From Betaproteobacteria bacterium (GTDB taxonomy: Bacteria; Pseudomonadota; Gammaproteobacteria; Burkholderiales; Ga0077523), in assembly GCA_025350245.1 (NCBI GenBank), contig JANXYG010000035.1, positions 1 to 42,418 of the forward strand: a stretch of 42,418 nt of DNA, given 5' to 3'. A program made the translations under genes and the position numbers. Position 1 is the first letter of the stretch. Each line of letters starts with the position of its first letter. The notes beneath the pieces were generated by a model. It saw only the letters and a list, made by a program, of their open reading frames with translations, made no database searches and had not been told where the DNA came from. This document shows positions 2,671-16,039 of the stretch, piece after piece.

Positions 2671-4008
2671 CTAGAGTTTGACCTGACCAACTAGCGCTTC
2701 GGCGATTTTTGCTGCTAGCTCAGTCGTCTGAACTCTCAGAATCGAGTCGTCCGCAAGTCGGGCAATCCACTCATCACCATTCCCTGCCCTCGAGGTAACT
2801 TCTGGCGCGAAGGGAGAGTTCTCGCCGTCAGCGAGCCATTTTGGGAAATTCAAGGGGTTCTTCGACGACCAATACAGAGATGGCCCACCATCGTAGTTCA
2901 TCGCTTGATACATTCGATCGCTACGATGACCAATAAATGCAAGCTTTTCAAGCCGCGGAACGCTTGGAATATCGATACCGACGGTGAATGCCCAACTCCG
3001 CGCAACGCTTCGTCCTCCACATACTTCCAAGTAGTCGTCCAAGTCGAGTGGTGAGTCGTACAGGCGGATGCTCCCTGTTCCCCCGACGGACTCGAGAAGT
3101 TGAGTCAAGCGATGTCCGATTATCGAAGCCAGTAGTTTTACACTTGTTTCCCAGATATAGAGCTGCTTCTCTTGCATCTGGCGAATCTTCTCAACGACGG
3201 GATTGAAGCCCTGCTTTTGTTTTGCAGACAGTTCGAGCCCAGTAAGTGCCCCTTCAATTCGATCAAATATTAGTTCTAAGAAAGATCGAATGTCACCGCC
3301 TTCGTCGGACTCAGCCAAGGCTTCAATATAACGATCACGCTCCTTCTTCTTAATAATTATTGGAGGATAACCTGCTCGGATGAGTTCAAGGTTCCCTATC
3401 GCCCTAGAGATCCGCCCATTGCCATCAATGAACGGATGCACGTGAGTAAGCCAAGCGTGGAGCACGGCCGAGCGGACCGGTGCGGGTAGTGTGATGTTTT
3501 CTGCAGACCAAGACTGCCATTCGGCCATCATGGACATGATGTGCTCCCAAGTTTTCGGGGGAGTGTGTTTTGCGCCGCGGATCGTTACCCTATCCTTGCG
3601 AAATATTCCTGCGCCGAATCGATCGCCAAGAAGAAGGGCATGCACTTCATGCAGCTGGTGGATGTCAGTAGGGTGTTTCTTGTCACGTGCAAGCTCTGTG
3701 ATACGCGTTAGTGCGCGGTCTAGCGCCATCGCGTCTTTGGCATATGCCGGGTCGTGACCGGTAATTGTTATGCCTTTCAACACCGCAAGTTCCGTCTCGC
3801 CAGCGGACAGGGTACTGCCTTCTATTGCATTTGACTCGGCGACTTGTTCGAAGCGCTTCTCACCGTAGTAGTCTCTGACGGTTTGCGCGGTTAGCGTCCC
3901 GTTGCGGCGCAGCAGTGAGACACGCTCCTCTATAGCATCAAGTCGAGCCTTTACTTGTTCGGACGCTTTCTGGTCAAGGAGGTATGGAGTGCCTTCTAGA
4001 TTGAACAC
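2671..4008 (-). CDS. Fic family protein (class II-type, intact autoinhibitory motif)
   Basis: A protein of about 445 residues. Fic proteins transfer AMP (sometimes other phosphate-containing groups) from a nucleotide to a Ser, Thr or Tyr of a target. The canonical motif HPFIDGNGRISR is at residues 191-202. The N-terminal inhibitory helix S-N-A-I-E-G (59-64) matches (S/T)xxxE(G/N) of class II enzymes, with the flap near 134-151. After the Fic core a tail of about 180 residues (from roughly 265) is not one I recognise and lacks an obvious winged helix. I chose the GTG at 4008, which has GGAG eight bases upstream. A TTG at 4035 would add nine residues but has no such site. GC content and codon use are clearly lower than in all neighbouring genes, which suggests transfer. 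No antitoxin partner is needed for class II proteins and none is seen. Confidence 0.85.
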   Translation of the reverse strand: MFNLEGTPYLLDQKASEQVKARLDAIEERVSLLRRNGTLTAQTVRDYYGEKRFEQVAESNAIEGSTLSAGETELAVLKGITITGHDPAYAKDAMALDRALTRITELARDKKHPTDIHQLHEVHALLLGDRFGAGIFRKDRVTIRGAKHTPPKTWEHIMSMMAEWQSWSAENITLPAPVRSAVLHAWLTHVHPFIDGNGRISRAIGNLELIRAGYPPIIIKKKERDRYIEALAESDEGGDIRSFLELIFDRIEGALTGLELSAKQKQGFNPVVEKIRQMQEKQLYIWETSVKLLASIIGHRLTQLLESVGGTGSIRLYDSPLDLDDYLEVCGGRSVARSWAFTVGIDIPSVPRLEKLAFIGHRSDRMYQAMNYDGGPSLYWSSKNPLNFPKWLADGENSPFAPEVTSRAGNGDEWIARLADDSILRVQTTELAAKIAEALVGQVKL

Positions 4009-4263
4009 GCGAATCTCCAAATGAATACGAACCAATTACGCCACGGACCAAGTGCGGTGGCTTGACTGGGCGATCGCCGCGACGGAGAGGCAGGGGCGCG
4101 CAGGGCGATCTGCGTTGTGCGTGCTGGATTGCACGACGAGAATCGGTTTGGGATTCTTGAGATACCCACATTGCATTTCGTCCGATAAGCGGCCGAAGCA
4201 CGATGGGCTAAAAAGGCCATTTAGGCGAACAATTTAAGGACAATAAATAACGAGAAGGCTAGA

Positions 4264-12290: not shown

Positions 12291-13454
12291 ATGCTGATCT
12301 CGCGGCTCGAGCTGAAGAACTGGCTCAATTTCAGGAACGTGGACGTCCGGCTGCGCGAGCGCGTCTTCGTGGTAGGGCCCAACGCTTCGGGAAAGTCGAA
12401 CCTGCTGGATGCGCTGCGGTTCCTGAGGGATATCGCACGCCCGGAAGGTGGCGGCTTGCAGCGAGCCGTGAAGGCGCGGGGCGGTATCACCAAACTGCGC
12501 TGTCTTTCCGCACGGCGTGATCCAGAGGTCAGAATTTCAGTGGAGCTGGCCGAGTCCGCGGACGCTGCCCCTGTCTGGCGCTACACGCTCGGATTCAAGA
12601 GCGAAGGCAAAGGCCTGCAACGCGTGATGGTGAGCAAGGAGACGGTCGAGGACTTGTCCAAAGGCCAGGTGCTGCTGGATCGACCGGACACCGAACTCGA
12701 CGGTGCCGACCGCGAACGCCTCACCGAGACCAGCCTCGAGCAGGTGAACGCCAACAAGGATTTCCGGGCTATCGCCCAGTTTTTCTCCACGCTCACCTAC
12801 TTGCACCTGGTGCCGCAACTGCTCAAGTACAGCGAGATCGTCGGCGCCGCACGGCTCGATGGCGACCCGTTCGGTCAGTCGTTCCTGGAGCACATTGCCA
12901 ACACCCCGGATCGGACCCGCGACTCACGCTTGAAGAAAATCGAAGCGGCTCTTCGTGTCTGTGTGCCCAACATGCGCGATCTGAAATTCAGTCGTGATGG
13001 CGCCACCGGCCGTCCGCATCTGGAGGCGATGTACGAACACTGGCGGCCGGATGCCGGTTGGCAGCGCGAAGAACAGTTCTCCGACGGGACGCTACGGCTG
13101 CTCGGCATCATGTGGAGTCTGCTCGACGGCGATTCGCTGCTCTTGCTGGAAGAGCCGGAGTTGTCGCTGAACGAGAACATCGTGCGCCGGATCCCGCCGC
13201 TCATCTGGGATCTGCAGCGCAAGGCCAAGCACCGGCGCCAAGTTTTCATCACCACTCACAGCGAAGCGATGTTGTCGGACAAGAGCATAGACCCGCGCGA
13301 GGTGTTGCGGCTCGAATCCACGGCAGATGGCACCCGGGTACTGGGGGTCACCGAGAAGGAGTTGGCCCTGGTCGAAGCCGGCTATTCGGTTGCCGAAGTC
13401 GTCTTGAGCAAGGTGAAGCCGAGCGGCGTCGAGCAGTTGTTGTTGCTGCTCTGA
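12291..13454 (+). CDS. AAA/OLD-type ABC ATPase (AAA_21-like) of a two-gene unit
   Basis: A 387-residue ATPase of the RecF/OLD/AAA_21 group with no fused nuclease. It begins MLISRLELKNWLNFRNVDV. Walker A is G-P-N-A-S-G-K-S (29-36), the ABC signature-like segment is F-S-D-G-T-L-R-L-L-G (263-272), Walker B is L-L-L-L-E-E-P-E-L-S (283-292) and the H-loop histidine is His323 in I-T-T-H-S-E. The Glu after Walker B supports real ATP hydrolysis. Enzymes of this type act as sensors or motors in defence systems such as OLD, PARIS (AriA) and AbiL, normally paired with a TOPRIM nuclease. The next gene starts 13 bases after the stop and carries TOPRIM-like motifs. A strong AGAGAGGAAG precedes the ATG. Housekeeping roles are possible, and phage defence is inference. 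Confidence 0.88.
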   Translation: MLISRLELKNWLNFRNVDVRLRERVFVVGPNASGKSNLLDALRFLRDIARPEGGGLQRAVKARGGITKLRCLSARRDPEVRISVELAESADAAPVWRYTLGFKSEGKGLQRVMVSKETVEDLSKGQVLLDRPDTELDGADRERLTETSLEQVNANKDFRAIAQFFSTLTYLHLVPQLLKYSEIVGAARLDGDPFGQSFLEHIANTPDRTRDSRLKKIEAALRVCVPNMRDLKFSRDGATGRPHLEAMYEHWRPDAGWQREEQFSDGTLRLLGIMWSLLDGDSLLLLEEPELSLNENIVRRIPPLIWDLQRKAKHRRQVFITTHSEAMLSDKSIDPREVLRLESTADGTRVLGVTEKELALVEAGYSVAEVVLSKVKPSGVEQLLLLL

Positions 13455-13467
13455 TCACGACCTGCCG

Positions 13468-14064
13468 ATGGATGTGATGCTGGTTGCTGAAGACGAGTTG
13501 AGCATGGCCGTCATGCGACGTTTGCTATCGGCATCTGGCAGGGGTTTTCGAATCTACGCGGCGATCGTGGCTGGTGGTGTCGACGCCATACGACGCGGAA
13601 TCCCGGTTTATCGCAACGCGTGCCACGTGTTGCCTCACGTGGTGCTGGTCGACCTCGATCGAACAGCCTGCGCGCCGACGCTCCTGAAAACATGGGGGCT
13701 CGAGGTTCGGCCGGTGTCGTTGATGTTCAGGGTGGTGGTGCGCACTGTCGAAGCGTGGCTTATCGCCGACGCTGCCGGGTTGGCCGCAGAGTTGCTCGTG
13801 GCGCAGGTGAAGGTGAAGGTGCCGGCACACCCCGAAGATCTTGAACACCCAAAGCGTGAGTTGGTGAATCTGGCGCGTCGCAGTCGTAGCCGCCGTCTCG
13901 CGGCGGAGATCGCGCCGGCGCCAGGTTCGAGGGCGAATGTCGGACCGAAGTACAACGCTCGCCTGTGCGATTTTGTGCTGAATCGCTGGGATCCTTTTCG
14001 CGCGGCGGCCCGTGCGCCGAGCCTGGCGAAAGCGATGCATCGCCTCGATGGGTTCATGCGCTGA
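13468..14064 (+). CDS. TOPRIM-like (DUF4276/RloB-like) partner of the ATPase
   Basis: A 198-residue protein. The N-terminus M-D-V-M-L-V-A-E-D-E has a strand ending in acidic residues (Glu8, Asp9, Glu10), followed by a helix M-A-V-M-R-R-L-L. Next comes V-V-L-V-D-L-D (Asp62, Asp64), the D-x-D pair of TOPRIM folds, and then V-R-T-V-E-A-W-L-I-A-D (91-101). That last motif is close to the E-A-W-x-L-x-D segment of DUF4276/RloB-like proteins. Such proteins coordinate metal ions and cleave nucleic acid in OLD-family, PARIS (AriB) and AbiL-type systems. The C-terminus has N-P-K-Y-N-A-R-L-C-D-F-like content (GPKYNARL) and is basic. It is translated right after the ATPase gene. The fold assignment is motif-based and I could not model it. 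The function is inferred from the pairing. Confidence 0.65.
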   Translation: MDVMLVAEDELSMAVMRRLLSASGRGFRIYAAIVAGGVDAIRRGIPVYRNACHVLPHVVLVDLDRTACAPTLLKTWGLEVRPVSLMFRVVVRTVEAWLIADAAGLAAELLVAQVKVKVPAHPEDLEHPKRELVNLARRSRSRRLAAEIAPAPGSRANVGPKYNARLCDFVLNRWDPFRAAARAPSLAKAMHRLDGFMR

Positions 14065-14246: not shown

Positions 14247-14742
14247 ATGAATCGACGTGAACTTCTGACCGCAGCGACGGCATCCGTCGCGCTCGCCGCC
14301 TGGGGTTCGATGCCCGGCATGAAGGGCATGGACCCGATCCTCGGCGCCTTGAGCTCGCAGCTCGGCGTGAGCGACACCCAGGCGGGCGGTGGTCTCGGGT
14401 CGATACTGAGCCTGGCGAAATCGAAGCTGTCGACGCAAGACTTCTCATGTCAGCAAGGCAGTACCCGGTGCGGAGAGCTACATCAAGGCGGCGCAGCAAG
14501 CGCTCGGTTCGAACGGGTCGATCACCGACAAGGCGGGGCTGAAGTCAGCCTTCGCCAAGCTCGGCATAACGCCCGACATGATCGACAAGTTCAAGCCGGT
14601 TCTGCTCGAGACCGCGGGCAAGCTCGGTGGCGCTTCGGTCGGCGTACAGCCCACGCCGTCGATGGCCAGCATGTTCTGCGGGCAGGCCGAGCAGGCGATC
14701 ATGAGATCCCGTCGGCGCCGCTGCCGCTGCCGGCGAAAGTGA
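14247..14742 (+). pseudogene. DUF2780-like secreted protein, frameshifted
   Basis: From an ATG with a strong GGAGGA ribosome site, the first frame gives MNRRELLTAATASVALAAWG (a Tat-like twin-Arg leader), then L-G-A-L-S-S-Q-L-G-V-S-D-T-Q-A-G-G-G-L-G and K-L-S-T-Q-D-F-S. It then derails at about 14448. The next frame continues the same family with S-K-A-V-P-G-A-E-S-Y-I and S-A-F-A-K-L-G-I-T-P-D-M-I-D-K-F-K-P-V-L. This is the DUF2780 (VcgC/VcgE-like) pattern split by a one-base frameshift. The last 25 residues diverge from the family, and the frame runs 44 bases into the opposite-strand kinase gene. Either a real pseudogene or a sequencing error. Confidence 0.65.
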
Positions 14743-16039
14743 CCGTTGCTGCAAGACCTGACCCCGTGGGGTTGTCGCCGAGCATTACCTGCGCCCCATG
14801 CAGATCGGCGATCCGCTTGACGATGGCCAGGCCGAGGCCGCTGCCCTCGGTGCCGGTGCCGGTGCCGGGCGCGCGGTAGAAGCGCCGGAACACGCGTTCG
14901 CGGTCTTCGGCCGGGATGCCGGGGCCGGAGTCGGTGACCCGCAGCCGGGCCGCGCCGTCGGCGGCACGGTCGACCGTCACGTCGATCGTGCCGCCCGGCG
15001 GCGTGTAGTGGATCGCGTTGTCGACGAGATTGGCGAGCAGGATGCGCAGGCCGTCGGCATCGCCGCGGACGGTGACCGGGGCGTTCGCGGCGATGCCCAG
15101 GTCGAGTTGGCGCTCGACGGCGATGTTGTGCAGGTCGGTGACGACGCTGCGGGCGAGTTCGGCAAGGTCGGCCGTGGCGAATCGCGGTGCCATGGCGTCG
15201 GGCTCCTGGCGGGCAAGCGTCAGCAGTTGCTCCACCAGGCGCGCCGCGCGCTGGATGCCGGCGGCGAGTCGCTCGAACGCGGCCTCACGGTCGGCGTCGG
15301 TCGGGGCGCGTTGCGCAAGCTGAAGCTGCAGCTTGAGAGCGGTGAGCGGTGTGCGCAGCTCGTGCGCGGCGTCGGCCACGAAACTGCGCTGGGCGTCGAG
15401 CGCCGTGCCGAGACGGTCGAGCAGCGCGTTGAGCGAAGCCACCAGCGGCTGGATCTCGGCCGGGTGCCCGGCCGCGGGTAGCGGCGCGAGCGCCTGTGGA
15501 TCGCGCTTGCCGATGGCGCGGGTCACGTCCTCGAGCGGGCGCAGGCCCCAGGCCGTGATCAATGATGCCGCGATGCCCAGCAGCGGCATGACCAGCATGA
15601 AAGGCGACAGGGTGCGGAACGCGAGGCTGGTGGCGAGGCGCGAGCGCACCTTCTCCGGCTGCGACACCTGGATCACCTGGCCGCGCATCTGCACCGTGAA
15701 GGTGCGCCAGTTACCCTCTGGTGTGGGCGTGCTGGCATAGCCCAATTGCCCCAGGCCGGGCAAGGTCGGGTGCGGCTGCGAGAGGTAGATGCGGCGCCCC
15801 TCGATGCTCCACACCTGCACCACGAAGTCGTACCGAACCCGGGCTTCGCGCAGGGCTTCCGGCACGGCGTAACCGAAGTCCTGGTCGCGCAGCGACATCG
15901 CGATCTGCCGCAGCTCGTCGTCGAAGAAGCTGTCGGCCTCGGCGAGTGCATTGCGGTAGATGAGCCACGACCCCGCGATCGCTGCGACCGCGACCGCTGC
16001 GAGCAGGGCAACCAGCAGGCGTTTGCGGATCGAGCCCAT
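14699..16039 (-). CDS. Sensor histidine kinase, QseC/TctE type
   Basis: A 446-residue membrane kinase. The first membrane helix is at about residues 8-28, a periplasmic sensor region at 30-140 and a second helix at 143-165. A HAMP-like linker follows. The HisKA motif V-A-D-A-A-H-E-L-R-T-P-L has phosphorylated His226, and the ATP-binding domain has the N box (L-V-D-N-A-I-H-Y-T-P), D-x-G-x-G (D-S-G-P-G-I-P) and G-S-G-L-G-L-A-I-V-K. It would sense an envelope signal and phosphorylate the response regulator encoded just upstream, from which a GC-rich repeat separates it by 78 bases. Its ligand cannot be told, and the gene is not linked to an obvious target operon. Confidence 0.9.
   Translation of the reverse strand: MGSIRKRLLVALLAAVAVAAIAGSWLIYRNALAEADSFFDDELRQIAMSLRDQDFGYAVPEALREARVRYDFVVQVWSIEGRRIYLSQPHPTLPGLGQLGYASTPTPEGNWRTFTVQMRGQVIQVSQPEKVRSRLATSLAFRTLSPFMLVMPLLGIAASLITAWGLRPLEDVTRAIGKRDPQALAPLPAAGHPAEIQPLVASLNALLDRLGTALDAQRSFVADAAHELRTPLTALKLQLQLAQRAPTDADREAAFERLAAGIQRAARLVEQLLTLARQEPDAMAPRFATADLAELARSVVTDLHNIAVERQLDLGIAANAPVTVRGDADGLRILLANLVDNAIHYTPPGGTIDVTVDRAADGAARLRVTDSGPGIPAEDRERVFRRFYRAPGTGTGTEGSGLGLAIVKRIADLHGAQVMLGDNPTGSGLAATVTFAGSGSGADGIS

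Follow-up and report, generated by a model that had tools for sequence, protein, structure and literature searches.

The window (the whole stretch of DNA analysed, 42,418 nucleotides) was found to contain a two-gene unit that is a genuine, apparently intact and free-standing member of the catalogued candidate system HEC-01, since both of its proteins matched the HEC-01 models over their full length. The unit probably acts as a HEC-01-type module with a logic like that of PARIS and the split OLD nucleases, in which the first protein (A) would restrain the second (B) and protein B would act as a nuclease that stops the phage. The role in defence is one that we infer on good grounds, short of a demonstration. 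Two ATG-initiated open reading frames (ORFs) were present on the + strand, gene A at 12291-13454 (387 aa) and gene B at 13468-14064 (198 aa), with 13 nucleotides between the stop of gene A and the start of gene B. The preliminary description had given the same span and gap, which agreed with the ORF list, and the gene B motifs that it had named (E8/D9/E10, D62-x-D64 and V94-E-A-W-L-I-A-D101) were found at these residues. The features of the pair, with the evidence for each, were as follows:

12291..13454, + strand: gene A, OLD/Rad50-like ABC ATPase (HEC-01A type) without a nuclease domain (ORF, Pfam, PADLOC, AlphaFold, kept motifs)
12375..12398, + strand: gene A Walker A, GPNASGKS, residues 29-36 (alignment of 77 A proteins)
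13080..13097, + strand: gene A ABC signature, SDGTLR, residues 264-269 (alignment of 77 A proteins)
13140..13160, + strand: gene A Walker B, LLLEEPE, residues 284-290 (alignment of 77 A proteins)
13468..14064, + strand: gene B, HEC-01B-type protein with a predicted TOPRIM fold, remotely related to DUF4276 and predicted to be a metal-dependent nuclease (ORF, PADLOC, AlphaFold, closest folds)
13489..13494, + strand: gene B TOPRIM acidic motif 1, E8 and D9 (alignment; directly after model strand 2-7)
13651..13659, + strand: gene B TOPRIM D-x-D, D62, L63 and D64 (alignment of 79 B proteins)
13747..13770, + strand: gene B V-E-A-W-L-I-A-D, residues 94-101, DUF4276-like part (alignment; weak Pfam DUF4276 match at 81-148)

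In PADLOC, protein A was matched by the HEC-01A model PDLC04180 with an E-value of 4.5e-146 (residues 1-384 on model positions 1-379 of 382), and protein B by the HEC-01B model PDLC04194 with an E-value of 2.1e-53 (residues 3-196 on model positions 6-197 of 204). The combination of an ATPase and a TOPRIM protein is not new, as PADLOC already lists it as HEC-01, and the window pair has the same two-gene composition, with the genes adjacent and co-oriented. HEC stands for Hma-embedded candidate, and several HECs were antiviral in assays, according to the available part of PMC12988326. The window pair differed from the Hma (helicase-methylase-ATPase) cluster, as neither a helicase nor a methylase was found in the ten ORFs scanned between 2.7 and 21.5 kb. 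HEC-05 and HEC-06 are discussed in the accessible text of PMC11411939, and HEC-01 is named among the predicted systems of Desulfovibrio piger in that of PMC12724379. No published study testing HEC-01 was found in the searched literature, preprints aside, and other uses of the term were unrelated.

Protein A matched the Pfam family AAA_21 with an E-value of 2.2e-36 (126.9 bits, residues 26-328) and AAA_15 with 48 bits, and no TOPRIM family was present among its nine Pfam matches (E up to 10); the earlier reading of gene A as an ABC ATPase without a nuclease domain was borne out by these matches. The alignment (A5) held 77 A proteins, from 76 of 81 loci and the window copy (L033, L055, L060, L073 and L091 were omitted as partial, missing or over-long). 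Walker A contained conserved G29 (76 proteins), G34 (77), K35 (76) and S36 (77), with P30 (68/77) and S33 (61/77) less constant. The signature contained S264, D265, G266, T267 and R269 in all 77 proteins and L268 in 75, and Walker B was conserved in all 77 at residues 285-290, the EEPE stretch (E287-E290) included, and in 76 at L284. The switch histidine H323 was present in 77/77. The AlphaFold model of protein A had a pLDDT of 90.7 and a pTM of 0.89, and the structural search with it (VIA) gave Z scores of 20.9 for PtuA, 20.8 for SMC, 20.6 for Rad50 and 19.2 for AriA. On this predicted structure the closest family of protein A is not named, the four candidates lying within 2 Z units; protein A is called an OLD/Rad50-like ABC ATPase because its model resembles all four about equally. 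The best PDB sequence matches of the A profile were GajA chains (2.2e-13).

Relatives of the pair were collected from genome contigs with the alignment A1 as the query, which gave 360, and the best 80 of the 360 were kept, together with one viral contig. A single B protein as the query of the genome contigs found no close relatives, whereas the alignment query did. In our study, we found a relative of A directly upstream of B and on the same strand in 80 of the 81 fetched loci (in a few of them A was partial); in the sole exception (L060), B lay at the very end of the contig. The spacing between A and B was from -32 to +13 nucleotides in 77 of the 80 loci, including 35 with an overlap of 4 nucleotides, and the other three spacings accompanied short or over-long ORF calls. 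A separate set of 14 loci contained A in 13 (four of them divergent), the remaining one being cut by the contig end. Repeated co-occurrence, which had earlier been named as support for a defence unit, was thus near-constant over great distances. Judged by sequence comparison, the pairing is far beyond chance, since both proteins match full-length PADLOC models and 80 of the 81 relatives keep order and strand.

The distances among A proteins and among B proteins, compared over 75 loci, were correlated with a Mantel r of 0.81, of which shared ancestry alone can give a part; none of 2000 permutations was as high (highest 0.20). In only 36 of the 75 loci did A and B have the same nearest relative. 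The tree of A (77 rows, 8 without a label) contained 15 phylum labels, including archaea, and required 25 label changes, against a minimum of 14 and a mean of 49.5 for shuffled labels. This tree indicates partial clustering by phylum with mixing, behind which paralogy or mis-binned contigs may lie. The window A was placed in a supported set of ten rows from Pseudomonadota, Thermodesulfobacteriota and Bacteroidota (support 99, quick tree).

The distribution of the pair and its surroundings bear on the alternative that survives best, namely a chromosomal toxin-antitoxin or genome-maintenance module in which the ATPase-controlled nuclease would serve in the stress response or in controlling plasmids or the cell cycle, and not against phage. 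We consider this reading unlikely but credible. The archaeal OLD-class ATPase-nuclease Cran1 has a cell-cycle role rather than one in defence, as given in the available text of PMC12796447, and AAA/TOPRIM_OLD pairs are treated as toxin-antitoxin pairs in the part of PMC10440598 that was available. The same reading would suit the finding that no carrier was present among phage and plasmid records: none of the 50,697 phage and 72,556 plasmid records was matched by the window proteins (E limit 1e-5; 1e-20 for A in plasmids), and among viral contigs only one match was found. Against it stands the patchy spread of the pair. The HEC-01B model PDLC04194, at E up to 1e-10, was matched in 4/200 relatives including the own genome (3/199 others) and in 10/369 genomes of the class including the own genome (9/368 others), and only one of the 11 other genomes of the genus (G003) had a match, which was weak and divergent. 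The pair is not a core function, since it is patchy in both genus and class; conserved co-occurrence in every genome of the genus, which the preliminary description had named, if defence neighbours were also lacking, as one outcome that would speak against defence, was not found. PARIS also argues against a toxin-antitoxin pair, as its defence needs both genes and is lost, with no toxicity, when one or the other is deleted (PMC9122126, available text).

The GC content and third-position GC content were 0.620 and 0.80 in gene A and 0.626 and 0.70 in gene B, below those of five neighbouring housekeeping genes (0.67-0.71 and 0.84-0.91, respectively). The lower GC of the pair is in line with acquisition, though not proof of it. 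The flanking AMP-ligase gene was matched, at E up to 1e-100, in 2/12 genomes of the genus, one of them the own genome; in the second, the ligase match and the kinase matches were on separate contigs. In another genome of the genus, a weak, divergent HEC-01-like pair (L114:9392-12112) was found beside an ORF that looked transposase-like by eye, so that a mobile context of that pair is possible.

The surroundings of the window pair were examined by a Pfam scan of the ten ORFs between 2.7 and 21.5 kb, the direct neighbours included. The scan found an AMP-ligase, a ketopantoate reductase, a DegP-like protease, a DUF2780 protein, a histidine kinase, a response regulator and a Fic protein, and three ORFs were unmatched. 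The pair stood free between the AMP-ligase gene and the two-component pair, and the scan of the ten ORFs found no defence gene directly beside it. The Fic ORF at 2671-4035 (- strand), 8 kb upstream of the pair, was identified by Pfam (4.2e-13) and by the PADLOC model SoFic (1.2e-25); its GC content was 0.52 against 0.65 for the window, and it was probably acquired. In the ORF at 14247-14879 (+ strand), just downstream of the pair, the DUF2780 match covered only residues 27-67, which suggests a frameshifted gene or a pseudogene.

Beside the relatives, 224 near ORFs of 90-900 aa were taken from 79 loci, at most two per side and none farther than 4 kb. The genes were called greedily, longest ORF first, so some may be false ORFs. 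The 224 were compared with PADLOC at 1e-20 in two subsets, 113 chosen by the analyst and the other 111. Among the best 25 of 78 families matched by the 113 ORFs, mad3 was found in four and type III methyltransferase in three, followed by PD-T4-6, ZorD, DpdE, mad6, PDC-S27 and dGTPase models with one each. The best 25 of 33 families matched by the 111 ORFs contained helicase-type models, AbiD, PD-Lambda-2_B and PDC-M30A, one each. These counts are per model, and the number of distinct genes behind them is approximate. The far control, 103 ORFs at distances above 5 kb, matched five families with one member each (GlgB, desaturase, two WYL and Cas3c); it comprised the 103 of 159 far ORFs with at least 170 aa, and as 67 of the 224 near ORFs were shorter, the near and far sets are unmatched. 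Close to the pair, defence models are in modest excess over those at distances above 5 kb, and this counts against the toxin-antitoxin or maintenance reading. On the side of that reading, the commonest Pfam families among the 113 of the 224 near ORFs (best 25 of 161 families) were metabolic. The earlier expectation of variable islands with defence neighbours therefore found weak support: the modest excess near the relatives speaks for it, and the metabolic character of the commonest families and the lack of such a gene directly beside the window copy speak against it.

The AlphaFold model of protein B was confident, with a pLDDT of 94.6 and a pTM of 0.90. The PDB sequence search with B or with its profile gave no matches. 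In Foldseek, the top two entries were TOPRIM domains of XccOLD with E-values of 6.7e-3 and 8.7e-3, and nothing was found at an E-value below 0.001. In the VIA structural alignment, the TOPRIM of BpOLD was first with a Z of 9.9 (163 aligned residues, rmsd 3.6), followed by AriB of PARIS with 9.6 (157 residues), XccOLD with 8.8-8.9, the uncharacterised archaeal protein 2p62 with 8.8 and a second AriB entry with 8.5. Six of the top seven rows, with Z from 9.9 to 8.5, were TOPRIM chains of OLD or AriB; the highest-scoring entry that is clearly unrelated had a Z of 7.3, and retron TOPRIM effectors were lower (6.0 and 5.5). According to the search tool, top Z scores of 7 to 8 are often seen even where a model has no clear match, and the scores of B are moderate, so the fold call rests on scores and motifs together. 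Support for a TOPRIM fold in the predicted structure is good, though not overwhelming. The preliminary description of B as a small TOPRIM protein agrees with the model, with the OLD and AriB chains as its closest folds and with the kept glutamate and D-x-D acids. With this predicted fold, protein B would be a metal-dependent nuclease.

The alignment of B (A3) contained 79 proteins, from 78 of the 81 loci and the window copy (L055, L057 and L089 were omitted for short or over-long ORFs). E8 was conserved in 79/79, D9 in 76/79, D62 in 79/79 and D64 in 76/79 proteins, and C68, R88, E95, W97, K129, G159, Y162, W174 and S185 were invariant (79/79). The window copy contained a two-residue insert, Q113 and V114 (13804-13809), that is missing from the other 78. 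It is improbable that protein B serves as a TOPRIM-fold adaptor without catalytic activity, with protein A doing the work. Fold similarity is no proof of catalysis, and the window copy has T93 (13744-13746) where 76/79 B proteins have the near-invariant E; however, E8, D62 and D64 were kept jointly in 76/79 B proteins, the window copy among them.

With Pfam DUF4276 (PF14103), the window B gave an E-value of 0.015 and 16 bits against a curated cut-off of 30.2, and this family matched every one of the 79 B proteins when E-values up to 1 were allowed, the best being 3.7e-9. In a profile-profile comparison of B with five DUF4276 and two HEC-01B proteins, the probability was 98.5%, and E8, D62 and the E93/E95 segment of B were set on acidic positions of the DUF4276/HEC-01B set. 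By these profile comparisons, protein B is a remote relative of DUF4276, outside the family by Pfam's own rule. The DUF4276/RloB-like segment noted earlier was thus real in its DUF4276 part, though below the cut-off, whereas the RloB part did not hold, as the 12 families with a match (E up to 1) among the 79 B proteins did not include RloB. A literature search for DUF4276 by name found nothing. Five strict DUF4276 hits (L116-L120) were present in 4/143 genomes of the class, each directly downstream, and on the same strand, of an ORF whose start was judged by eye to be ABC ATPase-like. As all five follow such an ORF, the pairing with an ATPase may be general to the wider DUF4276 family.

Among the known systems, PARIS (class 4 OLD) resembles the window pair in having a separate ABC ATPase and a TOPRIM protein in one operon. 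PARIS is detected as AAA_15 or AAA_21 together with DUF4435 in the available text of PMC9122126; protein A matches both ATPase families, and the fold of B is near that of AriB (Z 9.6 and 8.5). The AriB chains have 305-306 residues against the 198 aa of B, with 6% identity in the structural alignment. None of the 79 B proteins matched DUF4435 at E up to 1, in agreement with the earlier view that the second protein does not look like AriB, and no DUF4435 proteins were found in 143 genomes of the class. A strict PARIS (AriA/AriB) system is very improbable: the two-gene order and logic are the same, AAA_21 is present in A and AriB is among the closest folds of B, but the DUF4435 domain needed for PARIS detection (PMC9122126, available part) is missing, which contradicts this identity, and HEC-01A matched A at 4.5e-146 against 2.8e-33 for the best AriA model, whose length and matched range are those of Pfam's generic AAA_21.

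The OLD and Gabija GajA enzymes (classes 1-2) resemble the pair in that the best fold match of B was an OLD TOPRIM (Z 9.9, tied with AriB) and the best PDB matches of the A profile were GajA chains. They differ in carrying the ATPase and TOPRIM in one polypeptide, whereas here two genes were found and A had no TOPRIM match; the ten ORFs scanned near the window pair included no helicase. AbiL (AbiLi/AbiLii) also has an ATPase and a TOPRIM_OLD-related effector as two genes, AbiLii and RloB being related to OLD_TOPRIM in the available text of PMC10440598, and A matched the AbiLi model in PADLOC (9e-21); the RloB-type second protein of AbiL was absent (0/79 B proteins). TOPRIM-linked OLD-ABC operons are an established theme, according to the available part of PMC12839542.

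In its mode of action the pair most likely follows PARIS, although it is not itself a PARIS system. In PARIS, binding of the trigger frees AriB, which then cuts tRNA-Lys, as given in the accessible text of PMC12409363. By the same logic, protein A, an ABC ATPase that is probably multimeric, would bind ATP, sense a signal of infection and hold protein B inactive. Once A is triggered, B would be released or activated and would cut nucleic acid, and the infected cell would stop supporting the phage (abortive infection). B may act on tRNA, like the PARIS effector, or on DNA, like other OLD enzymes. As a case of an ATPase-gated TOPRIM protein, the pair is clean, compact and widespread; the literature searched contained no study of its function, and its small size suits direct biochemical work. 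If it works in this way, it would extend the OLD/PARIS group by a further, untested family of effectors. Tentatively, this HEC-01 subgroup could also represent a distinct and ancient line of split ATPase-TOPRIM immunity that is mainly chromosomal and occurs singly across bacteria and archaea. Its compact TOPRIM of 200 residues, with an invariant set of its own (C68, R88, E95, W97, K129 and Y162, with E93 in 76/79), would then act on a substrate, or respond to a trigger, unlike those of PARIS and Gabija.

A second, distant HEC-01 pair was found in the same genome (C114:13610-17784, L003:1611-5785), directly downstream of a DNA methyltransferase ORF. It was matched by the HEC-01A model PDLC04182 (6.5e-190) and by the HEC-01B model PDLC04205 (2.3e-71, residues 3-172 only), and the C-terminal part of its B-like ORF looks frameshifted. 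As the same genome carries this pair near a methyltransferase ORF, the free-standing and the methylase-linked versions could be compared. Further strong AAA_21 matches were present in the genome at C44:21924-22847 (3.6e-30), C64:35137-36045 (3.2e-22) and C86:37916-38245 (5.8e-20), and these ORFs are possible further ATPase-based systems.
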